Below, in pieces: positions 50,641 through 64,000 of a stretch of DNA of 64,000 bases (positions within the stretch are counted from its first letter, which is position 1; each line of letters opens with the position of its first letter). The notes beneath the pieces were generated by a model. The model was not told the origin of the DNA. It made no database searches and saw nothing but the letters and a program-made list of their open reading frames with translations. A program made the position numbers and the translations under genes. The DNA comes from an uncultured Flavobacteriaceae bacterium. GTDB lineage: Bacteria > Bacteroidota > Bacteroidia > Flavobacteriales > Flavobacteriaceae. The stretch lies in assembly GCA_947500575.1 (NCBI GenBank), contig CANMSI010000003.1:372001-436000 (forward strand), in the 5' to 3' direction.

Positions 50641-51537
50641 TTATTCTGTTTTATAATCTATTAGGCGCTGAGGTCCTTCCAGAACTTTCCGAACAATTTG
50701 AAGTGTTCCATTGTCTTTGGTAGCAATATGCCATTTGATTAAGGAGATATGACCTCCTTCAATTTCAATTCCAGTAATACTTCTTGGATGCACACAGCTT
50801 CCATCATTAAAAAAAGCCAATTCCCCTGGCTCTGGAAAACGAGGACGGTGCGTATGGCCTATGACCGTCATTAAATTTCCATTTTTAGCAACCCATCGTT
50901 TTACTCTGCGTTCCAATTTAATTAACTCTTTGAAATTTTTCGCTGGACTAGTAGGATCTGAAATCCCAACAATTTGCAAAGGTTTCCACAATGCCCTCAC
51001 CAAAAATCGATTAATGCGCCAACCATGATAGTTCATAAAATCTGCTTGATGTCCATGAGCAAGAAAAATCTGTTGTCCGTTTTCGGTATGTTTTAATACC
51101 AAACCTTCATGATACTCTAGACCTTGCAATAGCACTTCTTCCCTACCATCTTTGGGGTCAAAATACGTATGTAGATGCTTTTTTACATAATTGGCATTGC
51201 GGTAGACCATATCATGATTTCCCCATAGTAAATGCAATCTTTGTTCTTCATGAAATTGCTTCATAAGCATATACACATTTTTATGTGCCAGCAACAGAGG
51301 TTCAAAAGATCGGTTTTCCCATAATTCATCTCCATCTCCTAGTTCGCAATAGGTAAAACCCTCATTATAATAATGTTTTAAAGCATGAAAGTAAATATTC
51401 CGATTATTGGCAAAATCATCCGCAAAACTATTATCGCCTCGGTGACAATCACTAAAGAGAATGAATTTAGAAGTATCGTCAAAGGGGACTATTTTAGCCT
51501 TAGAATATGCACGTGTTAATCGGGAATCGGAGGACAT
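50641..51537 (-). CDS. Calcineurin-like metallophosphoesterase
   Basis: A 298-residue cytoplasmic phosphoesterase with the usual metal motifs: FSDCHRGDN (about 27-35), GDGDELW, GNHDMVY, and GHTHRPRF near 228, preceded by LAHGHQADF near 160. The C-terminal 60 residues contain a conserved GELAFFNDGSCVHPRSITGIEI stretch. Members act on nucleotides, cyclic nucleotides or lipids; the insertion with HGWRINRFLVRALWKPL may touch a membrane. Substrate unknown. Monocistronic, divergent from the GAF protein gene. Confidence 0.92.
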   Translation of the reverse strand: MSSDSRLTRAYSKAKIVPFDDTSKFILFSDCHRGDNSFADDFANNRNIYFHALKHYYNEGFTYCELGDGDELWENRSFEPLLLAHKNVYMLMKQFHEEQRLHLLWGNHDMVYRNANYVKKHLHTYFDPKDGREEVLLQGLEYHEGLVLKHTENGQQIFLAHGHQADFMNYHGWRINRFLVRALWKPLQIVGISDPTSPAKNFKELIKLERRVKRWVAKNGNLMTVIGHTHRPRFPEPGELAFFNDGSCVHPRSITGIEIEGGHISLIKWHIATKDNGTLQIVRKVLEGPQRLIDYKTE

Positions 51538-51653
51538 GAATCAAATTTTGTATAAATATCATAAAAAATGAAGACAATTCTTAAGGTTTCCTTTAACAAT
51601 AATATCGACATTTCTTTTGTAATTTTACGTTAAAATAACGACTAACATTGACT

Positions 51654-54026
51654 ATGACGAAGGATACAAATGTTGAAATGCCACTGGATCTGCTTATAAG
51701 TTTCCACAAATTGTTGGAACATTATGATCGTATGGCCAAAAGTGAAGATGCATTTTTGGCGACCAAGGCAAAGTATATCTTAGAAGCTCAAGCACCTTAT
51801 CCCGAATTAAGGGAGGGTTTTTGTGATGAGTCTTTGTTGGAAAAACACAAAGACGTTATTAAAATTATTCTTCAAGATACTTTTACGGAAGTGCTGGGTG
51901 CTAATGAAATTAAGGCAGCATCTGTACCCTATACCAATCTAGTCTTTAATACCACGGAGCGCTTTAAAAATATATTGAAGAATGCAGGCCCAAATTATGA
52001 TCTTCAAATCCGAAATCAAGAAGAAGGTGTCAACTACATCATGGCTGCAACAGTGATTCTTAATTTCTATTACGGATTTCACTTAGATTTTAAGAGACCG
52101 CTTTTTTACGATATTCCTGATGAAAAAGGAGTTATGCGTCATTATCGAATTTTATACAATGCAGATTTTATAGACATAATTCCTAATGGCACACCCAAAG
52201 AGCTAACACAAAAGGATGTAGATGAATTATTAGAAAATGTAGATGATTTAGAACTTTGGAAAGAAAAAATACCTCCTAGTAGTTTTATTACCAAAGGTTT
52301 TGTGATTTCTAATATGTTCGATGTTACCGCAGAGCATTCCATTTCCGAAATAAAATCTAGCCTTATTAGAAATAACAAAAGAGGAGATGATAATTTTATG
52401 GATCATCTTCATAATACTTTTAAATCCCTTTTTAATCTTCCCAACATTCAAGTAGGTTTTGTAACCTATAATTCTGGGACAGATCAGTTTGAAAGAGTGT
52501 ATGGAAAAGGAGTGGCCAGCTTCATTTTAAAGGATAAGGATACCCAAAACTGTGAAGAAGCATTGTGCAAGGGATCTTATAGTAAACTAATTGAAGCAGG
52601 TACGTATTATACCATATCGAATGTAGATAAACAATATGAACTTTCAGGAGGAATTGCCCCCTATAGTGGTTTAAAGAAACAAGGAGTTAAGAGCGCTATT
52701 TTTGCTCCAATTGCGGATGAAGGCGAAGTTTTGGGAGTGCTAGAATTGGTAGCTACTGAGGTTAATGAACTCAATAGTGTGAACGCTACTAAATTGGTAG
52801 ATGTAATGCCTTACATCGTTGCTGCTGTTTTACGTTCTAAGGTAGAAGAAGAAAATTTGATTGCTGCTATTATACAGCACGAATGTACGTCTGTGCATTC
52901 TTCTGTGTATTGGAAATTTCAAGAAGAAGCAAAACGCTTTATTATTGATGATTTGGAGGGAAGGCAACCTTCTTTCAAAGAAATTGTTTTTAAGGATGTT
53001 TACCCCTTATATGGACAGGTAGATATAAAAGACTCTTCACAAGCAAGGAATACGGCTATTCAGCGCGATTTGATGATTCAACTATCCGAGGTGAATACGG
53101 TGCTTACTGCCGCATGGGAAGCAAATAAGTTGCCTATTTATGAAGAGCTAATCTTTAGGGTAAATAAGCATTTAGATAGCATTAAAGAAGTTCTTTATAC
53201 CAATAGTGAACAGGCTATTTTTGATTTTATAAAAGAAGAGGTAACTCCCGTTTTTAAACACCTTAAAAAAGAAGATAAAAATTTAAAAAAGCAAATAGAG
53301 CTTTACGAGGCTAGTATTGATGAAAACACAGAATCGTATTACGATCATCGTAGAAATTATGATGAGAGTGTTATGAAGATTAATAAGAAGCTAGTCTCGG
53401 TAATTGATAAGAAGCAAGTAGAAGCTCAAGAGATGTTTCCTCATTACTTTGAACGTTACAAGACAGATGGAGTGGAGCACAATTTATACATTGGCGATTC
53501 TATTGCGGAAGATCGAGATTTTGATCCATTGTATTTAAATAATCTGCGATTATGGCAATTACAGGTAATGTGCGAAATGGAAAACACATATTATAATTTA
53601 AAGCCCAAATTACCTGTGCAATTAGATGTGGCTTCTCTTGTTTTAGTCTTTAATGCGTCTTTGTCTATTCGGTTTAGAATGGATGAAAAACAATTTGATG
53701 TAGATGGAACATACAACGCTCGATACGAGATTATAAAGAAAAGAATAGATAAATCTTTTATTAAAGGAACCAATGAACGTCTAACTCAAAAAGGAAAAAT
53801 AGCCATTGTTTATTCTCAAAAGAAAGATGAATTGGAATACCTAAGATATATTGCCTTTTTAAAGTCTAAGGGTTATTTTACCAATGCCATTGAGATCGTA
53901 GAATTAGAAGGTCTTCAGGGAGTTTCAGGTCTCAAGGCAATTAGAGCGGAGATCTTGTACAAAAAAGGAAAAGAATCCGAAAAGACCTATACGTATAATG
54001 ACCTTATGGATGAATTAAAGGCTTAG
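51654..54026 (+). CDS. Large GAF-domain protein, otherwise uncharacterised
   Basis: A 790-residue soluble protein with no signal peptide. About 250-400 look like a GAF domain (IQVGFVTYNSGTDQFERV, SIAEAG-type turn, KSAIFAPIADEGEVLGVLELVATEV). Residues 1-240 and 400-790 have no recognised domain; the last 300 include helical stretches with regularly spaced acidic residues and a strand-rich patch (DVASLVLVFNASLSIRFRMD). There is no HD, GGDEF, EAL, kinase or DNA-binding output domain, so a ligand-controlled protein-interaction role is most likely. TTG two codons upstream of the ATG at 51654 was rejected. It converges on the HD-membrane gene, overlapping by 12 bases. Confidence 0.78.
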   Translation: MTKDTNVEMPLDLLISFHKLLEHYDRMAKSEDAFLATKAKYILEAQAPYPELREGFCDESLLEKHKDVIKIILQDTFTEVLGANEIKAASVPYTNLVFNTTERFKNILKNAGPNYDLQIRNQEEGVNYIMAATVILNFYYGFHLDFKRPLFYDIPDEKGVMRHYRILYNADFIDIIPNGTPKELTQKDVDELLENVDDLELWKEKIPPSSFITKGFVISNMFDVTAEHSISEIKSSLIRNNKRGDDNFMDHLHNTFKSLFNLPNIQVGFVTYNSGTDQFERVYGKGVASFILKDKDTQNCEEALCKGSYSKLIEAGTYYTISNVDKQYELSGGIAPYSGLKKQGVKSAIFAPIADEGEVLGVLELVATEVNELNSVNATKLVDVMPYIVAAVLRSKVEEENLIAAIIQHECTSVHSSVYWKFQEEAKRFIIDDLEGRQPSFKEIVFKDVYPLYGQVDIKDSSQARNTAIQRDLMIQLSEVNTVLTAAWEANKLPIYEELIFRVNKHLDSIKEVLYTNSEQAIFDFIKEEVTPVFKHLKKEDKNLKKQIELYEASIDENTESYYDHRRNYDESVMKINKKLVSVIDKKQVEAQEMFPHYFERYKTDGVEHNLYIGDSIAEDRDFDPLYLNNLRLWQLQVMCEMENTYYNLKPKLPVQLDVASLVLVFNASLSIRFRMDEKQFDVDGTYNARYEIIKKRIDKSFIKGTNERLTQKGKIAIVYSQKKDELEYLRYIAFLKSKGYFTNAIEIVELEGLQGVSGLKAIRAEILYKKGKESEKTYTYNDLMDELKA

Positions 54027-55223
54027 TGCTACTTCCATTGCCCTATCTGGTCCAAAATACCTAAAAGCAATTCCAAAGGCAATTACAGATAATACGGTTC
54101 CGATCATAAAGATGGTATAAGTCCATCTCAAAATCTTGTATTTTCTGTTCAATACTAACCCTAAGAAATATAAATCTTTGGTAAGGGATGAATATACATA
54201 TTCCTTATCCTTAATTAATTCTTGAATCGCCCATTCGTATTCTGGCAGGCTCATTTGATGAAAATTACCAAAAAAGAGCAGATTCACTTTTTTATTTTCA
54301 ACATCCGTTTTCGAAAACTTACCCTGAGTTACATTGGGTCTGGTTGCCAAAACGGCTAATATCATGGATACTACACTAAAGGTGATAAAGATGAGGGTTG
54401 GGTAGATTAGATAGTCGTTAGAAGGGTTGTCGAGCTTCGGAATTAGATTCGACAAAGCAAGTGAAATAATAATAGCGTTTACAGAAAGTAGAATATTGGC
54501 TTTGGTATCTGCTATATCACTTAGGGTAAGATGATTTTTAAGGGTTACCCTAAACAGCGTTTGAACTCCTCTATCAGGGCTTTCACTTTTGTATTTGGCT
54601 TTAAGTGCCTCCTTCTTGGCTATTTCTTTTTCCGTTTTCTTCTCTTTGATTAATTTTTTTAAGTTTTTATCTTTTCCTTCTTGCCAATTGCTTTTCGCAT
54701 AATCTGTATAAAACTGATGCTCTTTTTTAAACATTGCTATGTTGGCATCGCACCATTCTTTAGTACTATACGAAGCAATTCCTAAGATGTTTAACTCCTC
54801 TCTTAAAAAATCTGAAGTCTCCCAATAACTACTTTGACCGAAATGTGAGGCGTCTGCATCCCGAATAATCATTTCGGAAAGTGTTTTAGGCTCATAATTT
54901 CTTTGGGTAGCCATAATAAGGTTGGATACTTTTTTACGTGTATCGGCATCTACGCCCTCAGTTTCCATAAAATTCATTGCTATTTCACAACTACTTTTTT
55001 CATGGTCTTGGGATCCTTTGGTATAACCCGTATCGTGCAACCATGTCGCCAAAAGTAAGATCTCCTTTTCTTTGCTGTCTAGCTTTTCAGAATTCAATAA
55101 TTCTTTAGTACTTTTAACCACACGCTGGGTATGTTTCAAGTTATGATAGAGGTATTTTTCATCAAGTTGATGTGTAAGCAAATCGCTAACAAAAATTTCA
55201 ACTTTTTCTAGAATGTCCGACAT
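54015..55223 (-). CDS. HD phosphohydrolase fused to Pycsar-effector-like membrane domain
   Basis: A 402-residue fusion. Residues 1-170 form an HD phosphohydrolase: His31, His63-Asp64 (WLHDTGYTKG), His74 and an Asp at 122/124 (IIRDADASHFG), the metal set of HD enzymes. Residues about 180-215 are a Lys-rich linker. Residues about 220-393 match the PycTM-type domain of Pycsar effectors: the entry VTLKNHLTLSDIADTKANILLSVN, helices at about 243-262, 272-293 and 366-390. Known Pycsar effectors open membranes after binding cCMP or cUMP. No nucleotide cyclase lies adjacent, and the gene is set among housekeeping genes, so it may be a stand-alone regulator instead of a defence effector. Family match is good; role is inferred. 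Confidence 0.85.
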   Translation of the reverse strand: MSDILEKVEIFVSDLLTHQLDEKYLYHNLKHTQRVVKSTKELLNSEKLDSKEKEILLLATWLHDTGYTKGSQDHEKSSCEIAMNFMETEGVDADTRKKVSNLIMATQRNYEPKTLSEMIIRDADASHFGQSSYWETSDFLREELNILGIASYSTKEWCDANIAMFKKEHQFYTDYAKSNWQEGKDKNLKKLIKEKKTEKEIAKKEALKAKYKSESPDRGVQTLFRVTLKNHLTLSDIADTKANILLSVNAIIISLALSNLIPKLDNPSNDYLIYPTLIFITFSVVSMILAVLATRPNVTQGKFSKTDVENKKVNLLFFGNFHQMSLPEYEWAIQELIKDKEYVYSSLTKDLYFLGLVLNRKYKILRWTYTIFMIGTVLSVIAFGIAFRYFGPDRAMEVALSL

Positions 55224-55280
55224 AAAACAGCTGTTTGAATTCCCCCAAAGTACGAAATTTTGAATTTTAAAGACATAGAC

Positions 55281-58200
55281 ATGAAGAAATATTACATCTT
55301 ACTTGTTGCTAGCTTTATTTTTACTGGATGTGCTACTTATAAAACGAAGTATGCGAACCCTAATTCAGCGAAAGATATTTCTTCAGAAAAGGAAGTTTCT
55401 CATACATTTTATCTCATTGGAGATGCTGGCCTTTCCCCTTCAGGGAAACTAAATCCGGCCTTGCAAATACTTAAAGATAAGTTAGCGAAGGCCGACCCTA
55501 ATAGCACAGCTATTTTTCTGGGAGATAATATTTATCCTGCTGGTTTACCAAGTAAGAAGAAGGAGGTGGAGTATACTATTGCCAAACATCATTTGGATGC
55601 ACAATTAAGTACATTGGAAAATTTTAAGGGTCAACCTATTTTTATTCCTGGTAATCATGATTGGTATAGCAAAGGGCTTAAGGGACTGGAGCGGCAGCAA
55701 AAGTATATAGAAGGGCAATTAAAAGACAAAAAAGTATTTTTTCCGGAAGATGGTTGTCCTATTCAAAAGATTGATGTGAATGAACAAATAGCAATCATTG
55801 CTATTGATACAGAATGGTATTTAACCAATTGGGATAAACACCCAACAATTAATGACGAATGTGATATTAAAGACAGAGAAAAGTTCTTTGGCGAACTAGA
55901 GGGTTTAATTAAAAAGAACGCAGATAAGACCACCATAATAGCCTTACATCACCCTATGTTTACCTATGGAGTGCATGGAGGTCAGTTTTCCTTAAAGCAG
56001 CAATTTTATCCAGCTAAAACAGGTATTCCTTTACCTATTCTTGGGTCTGTTGTAAATGTGCTTCGAAAGACTACGGGAGCTTCTACCACAGATGTTCATA
56101 ATGCACGGTATAGAGAGCTTAGAAAGCGAATTGTGACCTTATCTCAGTATTCTGAAAAAGTAATTTTCGCTTCTGGGCATGAACATACACTGCAATATAT
56201 TGTAGAAGATAATACTCCTCAAATTGTTAGTGGTTCTGGAGCAAAAAAAGGAGCTTCTAGATTACTCAACGGAAGTCTTTTTTCTACTGGTCAAATGGGA
56301 TATGCAGTTTTAAAGGTGTATACAGATGGTTCTTCTATTGTACGCTTTTATGGGGTTAATGATGCTGAAAAGGAAGAATTTTTATTTGCTTCTGAAGTAT
56401 TAACAGCAGATAGAAAAGTAGAAGTCGCCGCTTACAATAGTGAGTTTCCAAAAGAAAAAAGAGCAGCAATTTATAGTGAAGAAGAGACTACAAAAAGCAA
56501 ATTCTTCAAAACTATTTGGGGAGAGCGGTATAGAAAGTACTACAGTACAGAAGTGACTGCTCCCACAGTGAACTTAGATACATTATTTGGCGGATTGAAG
56601 CCTATGCGTAAGGGAGGTGGGCATCAATCCAAGTCCTTGAGAATGGTTAACAAAGATGGAAAACAATATGTAATGCGTGCCCTTCGTAAAAGCGCAGAGC
56701 TATACTTGCAGGCCATAGCTTTTAGAGATCAATATATCATTGGTGACTTTGAAGAAACTTTTACAGAAAGTATATTGTTAGATTTTTATACAGGTTCGCA
56801 TCCATATGCACCTTTTACTATTGGACCTTTAGCAGACGCCATTGATGTATTTCATACCAATCCCACTTTATATTATGTTCCAAAGCAAAAAGCTTTAGAA
56901 GATTTTAATGAGATTTTTGGAGATGAATTATATATGATTGAAGAACGTACTACCAATGGTCATGGAGATCAAAAGAGTTTTGGCTATGCAAATAAAATGG
57001 AAAGTACAGATGATCTTTTGAGGAAATTACGACAAGATGAAAAGTACAGTGTAGACACTGATATGTATATCCGTACGAGATTGTTTGATATGGCATTGGG
57101 GGATTGGGATAGGCATTCTGATCAGTGGCGATGGGCAGAGTTTAAAGATAAAGAAAGCGGTAAAATTGTATATAAACCCGTTCCTAGAGATAGAGACCAA
57201 GCTTTTTCTATTATGGGCGATGGTGCTTTAATGGCACTAGCAACTCGTGTAGTGCCAGGTCTTCGAATTATGGAAGGTTTCAATGATGAGATGCGAAGTG
57301 TAAAAGGATTTAACTCCTCACCGCTAACATATGCGCTAGATATTGCGCTTTTGGAACAGACAAGTCCTGAGGATTGGGAAAAGCAAGTACAAAACATTCA
57401 AAAGAATTTAACTGCTGAGGTAATAGACCATGCTTTTAAATCATTTCCAGAGGAAGTTAGAGATGATACGGTAATGGAGCTTAAGCGGGTACTGTTAGCC
57501 AGAGTAGAGGCATTATCCGATATCTCCAAAGAATATTATAGCATACTCAACAAGTTCGCAATTGTTACTGGGACCGATAAGGACGACTGGTTTATGATTA
57601 ATCGACTGCCCAATGGTATTACAGAGATTAAAGGGTATCGTATCAAAAATGGTAAAAAAGGGGAGCTCTTTTTCAATAAAAAGTTTTCTAGTGATACTAC
57701 GAAAGAAATATGGCTTTATGCGCTAGACGATGATGATAGATTTGAGGCCGAAAGTGAACACAGAGGTACTATTAAGGTGCGCTTAATTGGAGGTCAAAAC
57801 AATGATATTTATGATATCAAAGGAGATTCAAAGGTTGTAATTCATGATTACAAAAGCAAAAAGAACACTTTTACGAATACAAAAGGTGCAAGGGTGCGGT
57901 TAACGGATGACTATGAAACCAATACCTACATGCCTTTAAATTTAAAAGCTTCTACCAACCAGTTTATCCCAACCGTTGGCGCTAATCCAGATGATGGTTT
58001 CAGAATAGGTTTAACCAATATTTATACTTTTGAAGGGTTTAATCAAAACCCCTTCACCAGTCAGCATACAGTAAATGCTTCCTTTTATTTTGCTACTAAC
58101 GGCTTCGATATATCGTATAAAGGAGAATTTGCAAGAGTCTTAGGAAACGCTAATTTGGAAATGGCTGCAAAGTTTACAAGCCCCAATTTTAGTATTAATT

Positions 58201-58991
58201 TCTTTGGCTTTGGAAATGAAACCGAAAATTTTGATGATGATTTAGAACTGGATTTTAATAGGGTAAAATTACAAACCTTACGTTTTTCACCTTCCCTGGT
58301 TTGGAGAGGAGATCTAGGATCAAAATTTAGAACAGGAATCTCTTATGAAACCATTGATGTAGAAGAAACGGAAGATCGTTTTATAAACACCTTTTTTCAA
58401 GAAAATGGTGAGGAAAGTGAAAATAGTTTTGTGGGTATAGATGCAGAGTATACCTACGAGAATAGAGATAACCCGGCATTTCCAACCCTCGGCATGGCCA
58501 CTTCTTTACACTTTGGGTACAAGAGCAGCACGGATAATGGTGATCAAAATTTCGGATATATTATTCCTAGCCTATCTTTTGATTATAAACTAGTTCCAAG
58601 TGGACGTTTGGTATTGGCAACCAAATGGAAAGCACATTTTAATATTGGTGATGATTATGAGTTTTACCAAGCTGCTAGCATTGGGGGAGTAGATGGACTT
58701 AGAGGTTTCAGAAATCAAAGATTCACTGGTAAAACAGCCTATTATCAAAATACCGATCTTCGGTTTAGTTTGGCAAAGAAACGGACAGGGATACTTCCTT
58801 TAGCAGTAGGCTTATATGGAGGTTTTGATTATGGAAGAGTATGGTTTCCGAACGATTCTTCTAACATTTGGCATACTTCTTATGGAGGTGGATTTTTTAT
58901 TAATGGAGCAGATATTCTTTCAATGAACTTGGCACTTTTCAACAGTGATGACGGTATACGTTTTGCTTTTGGTCTCGGATTTGGCTTTTAA
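55281..58991 (+). CDS. Phosphatase-kinase-like-Omp85 fusion lipoprotein
   Basis: A 1236-residue lipoprotein (FTGCATYK lipobox, near Cys17). Residues about 40-340 are a calcineurin-like phosphatase: GDAG (Asp48), GDNIYP (82-83), GNHD (124-127), LHHPMF (223) and SGHEH (299-302). Residues about 430-700 carry kinase-like motifs: a Gly-rich GGGHQSKSLR (445-454), YVMRALRK (463-470), LGDWDRHSDQW (606-616) and RDRDQAFS (636-643), which match HipA/Fam20-type DRH and metal sites. The final 300 residues form an Omp85/BamA-type barrel: ENRDNPAFPTLGMATSL, SIGGVDGLRGFRNQRF, ending GFGF. TTG at 55260 was rejected. It is divergent from the HD-Pyc gene. The middle domain assignment is tentative. Confidence 0.85.
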   Translation: MKKYYILLVASFIFTGCATYKTKYANPNSAKDISSEKEVSHTFYLIGDAGLSPSGKLNPALQILKDKLAKADPNSTAIFLGDNIYPAGLPSKKKEVEYTIAKHHLDAQLSTLENFKGQPIFIPGNHDWYSKGLKGLERQQKYIEGQLKDKKVFFPEDGCPIQKIDVNEQIAIIAIDTEWYLTNWDKHPTINDECDIKDREKFFGELEGLIKKNADKTTIIALHHPMFTYGVHGGQFSLKQQFYPAKTGIPLPILGSVVNVLRKTTGASTTDVHNARYRELRKRIVTLSQYSEKVIFASGHEHTLQYIVEDNTPQIVSGSGAKKGASRLLNGSLFSTGQMGYAVLKVYTDGSSIVRFYGVNDAEKEEFLFASEVLTADRKVEVAAYNSEFPKEKRAAIYSEEETTKSKFFKTIWGERYRKYYSTEVTAPTVNLDTLFGGLKPMRKGGGHQSKSLRMVNKDGKQYVMRALRKSAELYLQAIAFRDQYIIGDFEETFTESILLDFYTGSHPYAPFTIGPLADAIDVFHTNPTLYYVPKQKALEDFNEIFGDELYMIEERTTNGHGDQKSFGYANKMESTDDLLRKLRQDEKYSVDTDMYIRTRLFDMALGDWDRHSDQWRWAEFKDKESGKIVYKPVPRDRDQAFSIMGDGALMALATRVVPGLRIMEGFNDEMRSVKGFNSSPLTYALDIALLEQTSPEDWEKQVQNIQKNLTAEVIDHAFKSFPEEVRDDTVMELKRVLLARVEALSDISKEYYSILNKFAIVTGTDKDDWFMINRLPNGITEIKGYRIKNGKKGELFFNKKFSSDTTKEIWLYALDDDDRFEAESEHRGTIKVRLIGGQNNDIYDIKGDSKVVIHDYKSKKNTFTNTKGARVRLTDDYETNTYMPLNLKASTNQFIPTVGANPDDGFRIGLTNIYTFEGFNQNPFTSQHTVNASFYFATNGFDISYKGEFARVLGNANLEMAAKFTSPNFSINFFGFGNETENFDDDLELDFNRVKLQTLRFSPSLVWRGDLGSKFRTGISYETIDVEETEDRFINTFFQENGEESENSFVGIDAEYTYENRDNPAFPTLGMATSLHFGYKSSTDNGDQNFGYIIPSLSFDYKLVPSGRLVLATKWKAHFNIGDDYEFYQAASIGGVDGLRGFRNQRFTGKTAYYQNTDLRFSLAKKRTGILPLAVGLYGGFDYGRVWFPNDSSNIWHTSYGGGFFINGADILSMNLALFNSDDGIRFAFGLGFGF

Positions 58992-61174: not shown

Positions 61175-62530
61175 CTATTGTGCAGCTAATTTTTGTGTAG
61201 ACTTCATTTTAAGATTACCCACCACAAAAGCACCCAAATCTCTTCCTTGACCAACACCAATTTCTACTGCTGCGCGGTAATGGATCCCTCCATACATTCT
61301 GCTAATAGCTGCTTCATCGGCAGCTGTATTGAAGGAGCTAAATGATCTAATAGGTAATCCGTAGGCCACTTCCGTATCATCATCAAAAGCAAAATTATCA
61401 CCGAAAACATCGGTTAAGGCAGTAGCAGCAGCTCCAGAAACTACACTATGTCCGCTGGTATATTCTGGAAATGGAGGAGTTTGTAGAACGGGCTTCCAAC
61501 TATCATCTATATGCTCGTTAATAAGCGTTTCAGGTCTAATTAGGTTACTTCTATATTTCTCATCCCAACAGCTTATAAACGCATCTGCAATAGCAATAGA
61601 AGTTTTGGTATATGCATAAAGGGTATCGTCAAAATTGGAATTTGTTTTCCTAGCAGCAATTTTTGTAATTCCGATCCAATGCGCTCCAGGCGTAATTTTT
61701 TTGGTCGCAAACATTAAATGCCCTCTAGTAACGGAGACATAAGGATTACAATCCCAAAATTGTGCAATTGCAACTTCTTCAGAAGTATCTCCCTTTTTAG
61801 TAATTTCCATACTAATGTCATAGACCTCTTTCAATTCTTTGTAGAAATCAGAACCTTTTTCCATTGAGAAGGGCGGAGGTGGTGCTGGTTTAAATTGTGC
61901 TGCAGAGTCAATAATAAAAGGTCTAATTTTATTCCAGTGAGGTTCAATACCATCCATATAAGACGGAGGTGTTGGTTGCCATCTGGAAGCATCTTCGGTA
62001 TTGACCGTAAATTTGGGCATGGTCCTAGTTTGTTTATAGTTGTCTTTATCCATCCATTGCGCAATGTGCTCTGCAACTTGTAAACCATAGTCTTTTGACG
62101 CTTTAAAAACTTCCGGATTTTTAGTCTCCCAACCCAGATATAGACTATCTCTATACTTAATAACTCGCTCTTCCGAAAAGATTAATCTTCTGCTAAGATC
62201 CATATGCGCAATGAGTGCTGCCAATTGATAATTTAGTTGCAGGGAAGTATCTGGCGCTGGAATTTGGGTTAAATCCTTTACCTGGCCGGTAAGACTTTGA
62301 TATTTTTCACTTTCTAAGGCGATGATTTCATATGCAGCAATATTTGGATATGCATAAATTCTGCTGGCCACGGGGGGCGAAAAAATATCATGAATCATAA
62401 TTTCCGTTACTTTATCCACAGCATTATGTAATTCTTCTGGACTAATCTCTATAGGCTGTACTTCTTTCTTCTGGTCACAGGAGTATAATAATACAACAAG
62501 CGTACATATTCCTACTAACTTTTTCATCAT
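61175..62530 (-). CDS. PAP2/vanadium haloperoxidase-family lipoprotein
   Basis: A 451-residue lipoprotein (LLYSC, Cys18) of the vanadium-dependent haloperoxidase group within the PAP2 superfamily. The vanadate- or phosphate-binding motifs are visible: an RPETLI stretch (residue about 325), PEYTSGHSVVSGAAA (about 358-372) and RMYGGIHYRAAVEIG (about 410-424). Such proteins either halogenate or act as acid phosphatases; the phosphatase reading is as likely. Expected on the outside or in the periplasm. A second Met (62527) is an alternative start. It is 9 bases after the FG-GAP gene and leads into the GyrI-like gene. Confidence 0.88.
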   Translation of the reverse strand: MMKKLVGICTLVVLLYSCDQKKEVQPIEISPEELHNAVDKVTEIMIHDIFSPPVASRIYAYPNIAAYEIIALESEKYQSLTGQVKDLTQIPAPDTSLQLNYQLAALIAHMDLSRRLIFSEERVIKYRDSLYLGWETKNPEVFKASKDYGLQVAEHIAQWMDKDNYKQTRTMPKFTVNTEDASRWQPTPPSYMDGIEPHWNKIRPFIIDSAAQFKPAPPPPFSMEKGSDFYKELKEVYDISMEITKKGDTSEEVAIAQFWDCNPYVSVTRGHLMFATKKITPGAHWIGITKIAARKTNSNFDDTLYAYTKTSIAIADAFISCWDEKYRSNLIRPETLINEHIDDSWKPVLQTPPFPEYTSGHSVVSGAAATALTDVFGDNFAFDDDTEVAYGLPIRSFSSFNTAADEAAISRMYGGIHYRAAVEIGVGQGRDLGAFVVGNLKMKSTQKLAAQ

Positions 62531-62539
62531 ACGTCAATT

Positions 62540-64000
62540 TTAATTTATCAGTTTATATACCTGCGCGCTATCATTATTGAAGGTAACAAGCAAATGTGGT
62601 TGTTGGTTAATGGTAATAATGTTCAAATGTCTAACAGACTTTTGAAGGAAGTCTAGACCAATAGTGTTTCCCAAAAGCACCTTATTTTCATTTTTAATTA
62701 AAGCGCCAGAAAAGGCATCTAGTCGTCCATGATAAGGTTTTACTCCAAAGTAATTTCCTCCTAGAAGCGCTTCTTTTTTGCCATCTGAGTCAAAATCATA
62801 TATCAAAAATGCCATGATGGGTGCTACTTGAAGGGTATTTTGAAAGGGAACAAAATTAAAGCTTCCTTTCTCATTCTTTAAGTAACCAGATCTCAATTCA
62901 TTTACCTCTAAAACCTGTGCCTTTTTTAAAGCAGCTTGCTCCATAATTTCTGGGATAGACTTACCTGCAAAAGAAGTATAATTTGTAAATTTTTTGCGAA
63001 GTGCAACCATTTGACCCGCTAGTTCGTCCAAACCAACAATGGGATAGTAACTACCATTCTTTTCAGTAGCAATAATGGTTTCTGTCTGACCGTTATCGTC
63101 AAAATCTGAATAATACATTTTCATCGGATGTTCACGAGAGGCTTTAAATTTAGTATTATTTCCAAAATTCCCTAAAAGGTAATCTAGATCACCATCGCCA
63201 TCAATATCAAAGGGAACAATTGCTTGCCATAAGCCTTTGAGAGATTGATTTAAAACCATTACTTCTGTAAATACGCCCTTGTTATTTTTAAAGAAACGAG
63301 GAGACATCCATTCACCTACTACAATTAGATCTTTTGCTCCATCTTCATCAAAATCTTGCCATAATGCATCTGTAATCATCCCTAATTTTTGAAGGGCTTC
63401 GGGTTCTTCTAAGGACCAATTTCCATTGTTGTTCTTAAGAATATAAGAACGGGGCAGATTACCAAAATCGGCAGAAACGGACTGGTTCCCTACAAAGAGG
63501 TCTGCATCACCATCTTGGTCATAGTCATAGGGTTTTATAACCGATGCGTTTTCAAAAGAATCCGGTAAAGAAGTTTGTGCAAATGAAGAGTCATTTTGAG
63601 TATAATAGGTGTCCAGAAGTGGTTTCATTTTACCGAAAAAGTCAGCACCTCCTGTTCCAATAAAAAGATCGTTCTTTCCATTTTTATCAAAATCTGAAAT
63701 TACGGCTGCCACATCCTCTTTGATAGAATCTTTCGCAATTTCTAGAATATCTTGTTGTACATAAATACTATCTGTCTGAATAAATATTTTCGATGGAATA
63801 TACTTGGAACCTCCAAAGAAAAGATCTTCTTTTCCATCATTATTTAAATCTCCTTGCGCAATTGCGGGCCCTCTATCTGATATTTGATAGGGAATTAACT
63901 TTTGGCGGTTAAAATCGGTGTAATTGTCTTCTGTATGTGTAAAGTTAAGCCCTAAATTACCTTCTACTTTTTTAAAAATTGACGGTGATACGATAGGTTT
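62540..64000 (-). CDS. FG-GAP/VCBS repeat exported protein, C-terminal part
   Basis: The frame is open to the right window edge, so the N-terminal part is missing; about 486 residues are seen. An in-frame GTG at 63712 is only an internal codon. It holds at least five FG-GAP/VCBS-type repeats with calcium-loop motifs (GDLNNDGKEDLFFGG, SDFDKNGKNDLFIG, YDYDQDGDADLFVG, FDIDGDGDLDYLLG, YDFDSDGKKEALLG). This fits a large exported propeller protein, often found with SusC/SusD or CRTAC systems. The PAP2-type gene follows by 9 bases, so the cluster is one operon. Its signal peptide is outside the window. Confidence 0.87.
   Translation of the reverse strand, partial: KPIVSPSIFKKVEGNLGLNFTHTEDNYTDFNRQKLIPYQISDRGPAIAQGDLNNDGKEDLFFGGSKYIPSKIFIQTDSIYVQQDILEIAKDSIKEDVAAVISDFDKNGKNDLFIGTGGADFFGKMKPLLDTYYTQNDSSFAQTSLPDSFENASVIKPYDYDQDGDADLFVGNQSVSADFGNLPRSYILKNNNGNWSLEEPEALQKLGMITDALWQDFDEDGAKDLIVVGEWMSPRFFKNNKGVFTEVMVLNQSLKGLWQAIVPFDIDGDGDLDYLLGNFGNNTKFKASREHPMKMYYSDFDDNGQTETIIATEKNGSYYPIVGLDELAGQMVALRKKFTNYTSFAGKSIPEIMEQAALKKAQVLEVNELRSGYLKNEKGSFNFVPFQNTLQVAPIMAFLIYDFDSDGKKEALLGGNYFGVKPYHGRLDAFSGALIKNENKVLLGNTIGLDFLQKSVRHLNIITINQQPHLLVTFNNDSAQVYKLIN

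Follow-up and report, generated by a model that had tools for sequence, protein, structure and literature searches.

Proteins that join an enzyme to an Omp85 outer membrane barrel within one chain have been described, and the closest to the locus considered here is the "Metallo" subfamily of Heinz and Lithgow (2014, PMC4104836). As presented in the accessible part of that paper, this subfamily carries a PF00149 domain joined to the barrel, apparently without a POTRA domain, is called a metalloprotease, and shows conservation at the genus level only; the word "kinase" does not occur in the text of that part. Patatin-Omp85 proteins (PlpD) also unite an enzyme and an Omp85 barrel in one chain but feature a different enzyme, and PlpD possesses a POTRA domain. 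The window analyzed here, a stretch of 64,000 nucleotides from contig CANMSI010000003.1 of an uncultured Flavobacteriaceae bacterium, carries on the plus strand (55281-58991) a gene for one lipoprotein of 1236 amino acids, in which a phosphatase domain, a predicted kinase-fold domain, and an Omp85 barrel follow one another. We assign a probability of about 60% to the reading that this protein is an outer membrane phosphotransfer machine, with an exported kinase-fold domain and a phosphatase mounted on the barrel.

The family of this protein differs from "Metallo", as far as the accessible text allows the comparison, in having a purple acid phosphatase fold, a kinase-fold domain between phosphatase and barrel, and members in many Bacteroidota families. 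The "Metallo" proteins are nonetheless likely to belong to it, which would correct the 2014 description of phosphatase-Omp85 proteins. A preliminary description made from the DNA sequence knew of nothing comparable; the union of phosphatase and Omp85 had in fact been described in 2014, whereas the kinase goes unmentioned in the accessible part of that paper (PMC4104836). No title pointing to a combination of Omp85 with a kinase fold and phosphatase was found in a literature search that left out most subscription journals. The folds themselves are known, the middle domain forms a family with no Pfam or NCBIfam match, and the combination was found undescribed in the literature searched. New are the form with kinase fold and barrel that lacks the phosphatase, the form split over three genes, and the association of the locus with polyphosphate kinase (PPK) and PycTM.

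The gene starts with ATG, within an open reading frame that extends back to a TTG at 55260, and has a copy number of 1 in the 4.2-Mb source genome. Its closest named relatives are found in Flavobacteriaceae such as Maribacter, Zobellia, Cellulophaga, and Arenibacter, and best-segment identity to relatives is 56 to 69% (80 of the 152 loci encoding a relative). Pfam recognizes Metallophos PF00149 at residues 42 to 239 (E 3.4e-7, above cut-off) and ShlB at residues 1131 to 1195 (below its cut-off), and the NCBIfam model Omp85_fam matches with an E value of 7.7e-17 yet scores 61.9 bits where the cut-off is 200; residues from about 385 to 800 have no family match in either scan. The calcineurin-like phosphatase and the Omp85/BamA-type barrel that the preliminary description had placed in the first and last thirds are borne out, the former by PF00149 and a structure match to purple acid phosphatase and the latter by 16 model strands and a match to BamA. 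The motifs it had read in between are correctly located (GGGHQSKSL at 445-453, VMRALRK at 464-470, DWDRHSDQ at 608-615, and PRDRDQAF at 635-642).

Kinase-like fold and active-site residues of the middle domain

The structure of residues 385 to 800 was predicted by AlphaFold2 from 66 sequences (the window protein and its relatives), with a predicted local distance difference test score (pLDDT) of 87.7 and a predicted TM-score of 0.88. In this model the middle domain is a two-lobe atypical kinase fold of the PI4KII/CotH/HipA/Fam20 type. All 10 Foldseek matches to the PDB with an E value of ≤0.001 are entries of PI4KII, HipA, HipT, Rio2, and MSMEG_1954, where we take MSMEG_1954 to be a kinase and an entry named "MDT protein" to be HipA. 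The best structural match in VIA-align is PI4KII-beta (Z 15.4, 249 aligned residues, root mean square deviation [RMSD] 4.1, 10% identity), itself a eukaryotic lipid kinase with a strand-3 lysine, followed by CotH (5jda; Z 14.5, 256 aligned, RMSD 4.2). HipA (Z 11.5) and the Golgi casein kinase 4kqb (Z 10.9), which is presumably of the Fam20 family, share the fold group at lower scores and give no family match to the window protein; other kinases, such as CtkA (13.1) and VPS34 (11.9), occupy the ranks in between. The best Z for models without a clear relative is 7 to 8 in VIA-align, or 14 in the case of five mostly helical models, whereas the middle-domain model has a strand-rich N-lobe.

Profile-profile comparison with hhalign, in which 45 diverse middle domains were set against 30 CotH relatives and 25 HipA relatives, gave a score of 38.2 with CotH (E 8e-4, with an hhalign probability of only 24%). 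Among the negative controls, nine unrelated profiles taken from this protein and its neighbors, no score exceeded 20.6; CotH against HipA, as the positive control, gave 43.3. The CotH alignment places GDWDRH on the GnWD loop and PRDRDQAF on the PwDYDNTFG metal motif. The CotH spore-coat kinases (PF08757) share with the window protein both the fold and the order of the catalytic motifs. With HipA the score was 25.9 (probability 2.7%), with DWDRH set on the N.DDH loop; this score alone proves nothing, because the CotH profile scored 29.3 with an unrelated family. Kinase activity of CotH is described in PMC7821199.

Family models contribute less. The CotH, HipA_C, and Fam20C models of Pfam do not match the window protein, whole or as the middle domain alone, up to an E value of 10, and the genome encodes a CotH relative separately. 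A sequence-only search for solved relatives returned none for the whole protein and one chance match (E 0.64) for the middle profile. Pfam scans of 45 single relatives retrieved one match each to Fam20C (8e-4), CotH (0.016), and HipA_C (0.25), among 28 mostly chance families. A genome search with the Fam20C model was uninformative: it had no match in 61 Bacteroidota genomes and says nothing, because 14 control genomes were also without a match.

The residues expected of a kinase active site are strongly conserved. The alignment comprised 153 rows and, after removal of a phosphatase-only row (L150), two edge pieces (L037 and L049), and one duplicate, 149 distinct rows including the window protein; it leans toward close relatives, which made up 110 rows before the duplicate was removed. 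All 149 rows have D637 and R638, as well as D501; for D610, R611, H612, D639, R466, and K470 the figure is 147/149 each. All eight kinase residues are present in the 21 diverse full-length rows; among the 19 rows that lack a fused phosphatase, D637 and R638 are kept in all and the other six in 17. The two exceptions, L131 and L132, consist of kinase fold and barrel and have all six residues changed, including D610N, lysine at 466, and glycine at 470, together with an altered glycine loop. From their sequences, these two are probable pseudokinases on an Omp85 barrel.

The structure prediction and comparison with Fam20C, CotH, and HipA that the preliminary description had proposed as a check thus returned a kinase-like middle domain. 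The HipA/Fam20-type likeness it had suggested holds at the level of the fold group, the nearest folds being PI4KII and CotH. It had also reasoned that loss of the DRH and DRD residues in most relatives would speak against a kinase; both sites survive in 147/149 aligned relatives. The VMRALRK strand it had singled out does form a strand in the model (462 to 470) but is probably not a plain VAIK strand, because the position of the strand-3 lysine is probably occupied by Arg466 (a placement from a weak alignment).

Phosphatase site, barrel, and probable cellular location

A model of 1200 residues, built from 31 sequences (pLDDT 69.5, with the barrel poorly scored), was used for the remaining domains. 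The phosphatase part matches pig purple acid phosphatase (5uq6) with a Z of 23.6 over 264 aligned residues (RMSD 3.3) and shares with these enzymes the GDxG, GDNxY, GNHD, HHP, and GHxH pattern. D48, D82, Y85, N125, H223/H224, H300, and H302 are present, and the metal ligands of purple acid phosphatases are, we assume, D, D, Y, N, H, H, and H; judged from these positions, the window protein has a complete predicted phosphatase site. Unlike purple acid phosphatases, the domain is fused to a kinase fold and a barrel, and its site is damaged in several relatives. Of 21 diverse forms with all three domains (triple forms), the alignment shows 15 with the full set of eight phosphatase positions and all 21 with the eight kinase residues. 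The phosphatase positions are damaged in L111, L112, L113, L117, L125 (truncated by a stop), and L130, where the kinase residues are all intact. L111, L112, and L113 are second copies; the other copies in their genomes are L005, L004, and L011. Phosphatase ligands thus appear to decay in paralogues while the kinase residues stay, a pattern that is new here. In L037 and L049 the last ~680 bases hold, on the minus strand, edge pieces of a second gene; their similarity to the family lies outside the kinase region.

The barrel part aligns with BamA with a Z of 20.9 (305 aligned, RMSD 4.1) and has 16 strands in the model, where its pLDDT is low; a barrel homologue encoded by a separate gene scores above the Pfam Omp85 cut-off. 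The sequence LRGF at residues 1140 to 1143 is taken to be the Omp85 L6 motif (V/L)RG(F/Y). R1141 is kept in 19/21 diverse triple forms and in 15/17 forms without the phosphatase (double forms), and G1142 in 20/21 and 17/17, respectively. A BamA-type barrel with such a motif would suit an assembly or translocation factor that carries its N-terminal domains as cargo or scaffold, comparable to patatin-Omp85 and "Metallo", and assembly or translocation is named as the conservative hypothesis for unknown Omp85 subfamilies by Heinz and Lithgow (2014, PMC4104836). Against this, Pfam and NCBIfam scans of the window protein recognize no POTRA domain (residues 761 to 890 were not folded alone), the active sites are kept although cargo or scaffold would not need them, and the two split loci, L243 and L244, encode each enzyme as a protein of its own, with its own signal, and not as a fused passenger. 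Omp85 subfamilies that lack POTRA are known. We consider the cargo or scaffold explanation very improbable.

A hydrophobic N-terminal segment is found in 16/17 double forms and 18/21 diverse triple forms. Because this segment, which lies ahead of the kinase domain, reads as a Sec signal, the kinase domain of the double form would be exported. Surface lipoproteins of Bacteroidota carry an acidic export signal after the lipidated cysteine. This signal is absent after Cys17 of the window protein, and in the close rows with a recognized lipobox (74/112) the six residues after the cysteine contain on average 0.2 acidic and 1.6 basic residues. Absence of the acidic signal favors the periplasm, which by analogy with other Omp85 N-terminal domains is the likeliest location.

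Domain architectures and the proposed phosphotransfer activity

The family search covered Bacteroidota (395 genomes, threshold E ≤ 1e-10) and matched 154, some of them with phosphatase-only or partial proteins. Outside the family and order of the window 110 genomes matched, and 96 of them have the kinase domain (80, plus 16 of the other 30); the sampled relatives with this domain span many Bacteroidota families. Double forms are mostly 850 to 920 amino acids long; one of them, L134, starts right at the edge of a contig, lacks a signal, and might be a triple form that is broken. In genomes G251 and G055 (loci L243 and L244) kinase, phosphatase, and barrel are encoded by three adjacent genes on the same strand. 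The kinase gene (518/545 amino acids, LAGC lipobox) includes the beta linker. The phosphatase gene (403 amino acids, with a lipobox-like ALSC recognized by eye) encodes a phosphatase that is more remote (E about 1e-20 against the profile of the family), the barrel gene has 394/395 amino acids, and each of the three proteins has a hydrophobic N terminus. In this natural split form each part could be purified alone. On a kinase-domain tree built from 53 selected rows, 6 switches between the triple form and the others are required, 5 of them imposed by well-supported branches, and the phosphatase has therefore been gained or lost several times. The unit of kinase fold and barrel is the core of the family, to which the phosphatase is added as an option, either fused or as a separate protein.

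In the proposed phosphotransfer machine the barrel would anchor the exported kinase-fold domain and, in the triple form, also the phosphatase held by the N-terminal lipid. The kinase domain would bind nucleotide or polyphosphate and Mg2+ through the glycine-rich loop, K470/R466, D610, and D637 and phosphorylate an envelope substrate, which would be a protein of the outer membrane or periplasm or else the head group of a lipid. This phosphorylation would be undone by the phosphatase, or the phosphatase would free phosphate. The role of the barrel would be to keep the two enzymes membrane-bound, and it may also present the substrate or assemble it. The preliminary description had envisaged, given a true kinase fold, one protein that would both add and remove phosphate and possess its own pore. 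If the kinase-fold domain is active, a widespread kinase outside the cytoplasm would be part of an outer membrane protein and work where ATP is not known to occur; the donor used by such an envelope kinase, as well as what it modifies, become testable.

Several points weigh against this proposal. The Foldseek TM-scores are low (≤0.43 among the matches listed), mostly helical models can score a Z of 14 in VIA-align without a clear relative, and the HipA profile score of 25.9 lies within the noise, as the CotH profile scored up to 29.3 with unrelated families. D610 is lost in L131 and L132. A low-confidence extended alignment sets R466 on the strand-3 lysine of HipA, with K470 four residues on, and arginine at this position is a classic inactivating change in ordinary kinases. 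The lipobox is found by a simple pattern in only 74/112 close and 8/21 diverse triple rows. PPK is not near the gene in half or more of the genomes and is on another contig in the genome of the window. ATP is not known in the periplasm, and kinase-fold enzymes also AMPylate or glutamylate, so that a shared fold does not show function.

More than anything else, the R466/K470 pair on strand 462 to 470 calls for caution about ATP chemistry of the ordinary kind. Arginine at the probable lysine position (in a weak alignment), a periplasm without a known source of ATP, and D610N in two relatives would all fit a pseudokinase-like domain that senses or binds a nucleotide or phosphorylated ligand without transferring phosphate and that gates or regulates an Omp85 assembly factor, with the phosphatase as the only enzyme. 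However, D610 (147/149) and D637 (149/149) are kept more strictly than the phosphatase site, and pseudokinases usually lose such residues; we regard this role as doubtful. Chemistry of another kind, such as transfer of AMP, glutamate, or lipid, seems improbable. SelO and SidJ are kinase-fold enzymes with other chemistry, no kinase model of Pfam or NCBIfam matches the window protein, and the Gly-Gly-Gly loop, the R466/K470 pair, and the conserved D639 are unusual; on the other hand, the nearest folds, PI4KII, CotH, HipA, and Fam20, are those of phosphotransferases.

Linkage to polyphosphate kinase and gene neighborhood

Linkage was assessed in 80 genomes hand-picked from the 110 outside the family and order of the window, with gene positions taken from among the matches listed. 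PPK lies within 20 kb in 40/80 genomes (9/24 families; ~1.4 expected), with 18 PPK cases coming from a single densely sampled family (f24), and PycTM lies within 10 kb in 51/80 (17/24 families; ~0.5 expected). Sixteen added genomes, in which distances were read by eye, raise PPK by 2 (G271 and G306) to 42/96, with <2 expected, and PycTM by 6 (G040, G149, G241, G268, G271, and G306) to 57/96, with <1 expected; the chance values assume genomes of 4 Mb, whereas a part of the added ones is closer to 2 Mb. Pairs of PPK and PycTM within 20 kb also occur with no listed copy of the kinase-Omp85 gene nearby, for example, in G359, G005, G066, G087, and G152. Literature on polyphosphate kinase together with Pycsar, and on phosphate donors of the periplasm, yielded nothing of use in the searches made.

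A donor other than ATP would explain the link to the PPK locus, the Arg/Lys change on strand 3, and the location outside the cytoplasm. That the exported kinase works without ATP and phosphorylates the cell envelope from polyphosphate or another non-ATP donor is, as a specific proposal, a long shot. The linkage to polyphosphate and PycTM provides a lead to the function of a domain that has no Pfam family.

Table 1. Features of the lipoprotein gene, its neighbors in the window, and the split loci
Feature	Position	Strand	Basis
Whole gene: lipoprotein signal, phosphatase, kinase fold, beta-rich linker, Omp85 barrel	55281-58991	+	Open reading frame translation, genome search
Signal peptide and lipobox FTGC, Cys17	55281-55331	+	Sequence
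Purple-acid-phosphatase-like domain, residues 39-380 (GDAG, GDNIYPAG, GNHDW, HHP, GHEH)	55395-56420	+	PF00149, structure match, ligand positions
Kinase-fold domain (predicted), residues 405-760	56493-57560	+	AlphaFold2 model of 385-800, PDB comparison, profile comparison
Glycine-rich loop KGGGHQSKSL, 444-453, between model strands 440-444 and 450-456	56610-56639	+	Model, alignment
Model strand 462-470, QYVMRALRK, with R466 and K470	56664-56690	+	Model, alignment
D501 in model helix 494-505 (alpha-C position by order)	56781-56783	+	Model, alignment
Putative catalytic-loop motif DWDRHSDQW, 608-616	57102-57128	+	Profile comparison, alignment
Putative metal-binding (DFG-like) motif PRDRDQAF, 635-642	57183-57206	+	Profile comparison, alignment
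Beta-rich linker with short strands, residues 761-890	57561-57950	+	Whole-protein model
16-strand Omp85 barrel, residues 895-1236 (model poorly scored here)	57963-58988	+	NCBIfam, model, PDB comparison
Omp85 L6-type motif IGGVDGLRGFRNQRF	58680-58724	+	Sequence
HD domain and PycTM membrane protein, divergent neighbor	54015-55223	-	Pfam, PADLOC PycTM match
792-amino-acid neighbor, itself without Pfam match; homologue carries GAF domains	51648-54026	+	Homologues in 7/40 distant loci
Neighbor without own Pfam match; homologue matches SdiA-regulated PF06977	59424-60314	-	Homologues in 19/40 distant loci
Calcineurin-like phosphoesterase, three genes upstream (Metallophos_2 just below Pfam cut-off)	50641-51537	-	Homologues in 58/80 close loci
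PAP2-type phosphatase, downstream	61175-62530	-	Homologues in 59/80 close loci
FG-GAP repeat protein, downstream	62540-64000	-	Homologues in 44/80 close loci
Split kinase-phosphatase-barrel genes	L243:6841-10793	one strand
Split kinase-phosphatase-barrel genes	L244:8551-12594	one strand

Homologues of the HD-PycTM, GAF, and SdiA-type neighbors recur in 75, 67, and 74 of the 80 close loci, some of which are short. Around 40 distant loci from 38 genomes, neighbor clusters, whose labels each rest on one Pfam-scanned member, include HD/PycTM (24), an SdiA-regulated-type lipoprotein (19), PPK (10), GAF-containing proteins (7), cyclase-TPR proteins (7), and a SixA-like histidine phosphatase (6). The SdiA-regulated domain PF06977 is presumably a beta-propeller. 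The HD-PycTM neighbor matches the PADLOC model of PycTM, the effector that the Pycsar defense system pairs with an adjacent cyclase. A defense reading of the window protein itself was rejected, as no PADLOC model matched it. Because HD-PycTM recurs with PPK, a role other than, or besides, phage defense is suggested for it. A locus made up of PPK, the SixA-like phosphatase, HD-PycTM, and the SdiA-regulated-type lipoprotein recurs around the kinase-Omp85 gene among the 96 genomes, for example, in L216, L220, L221, L230, L237, and L238.

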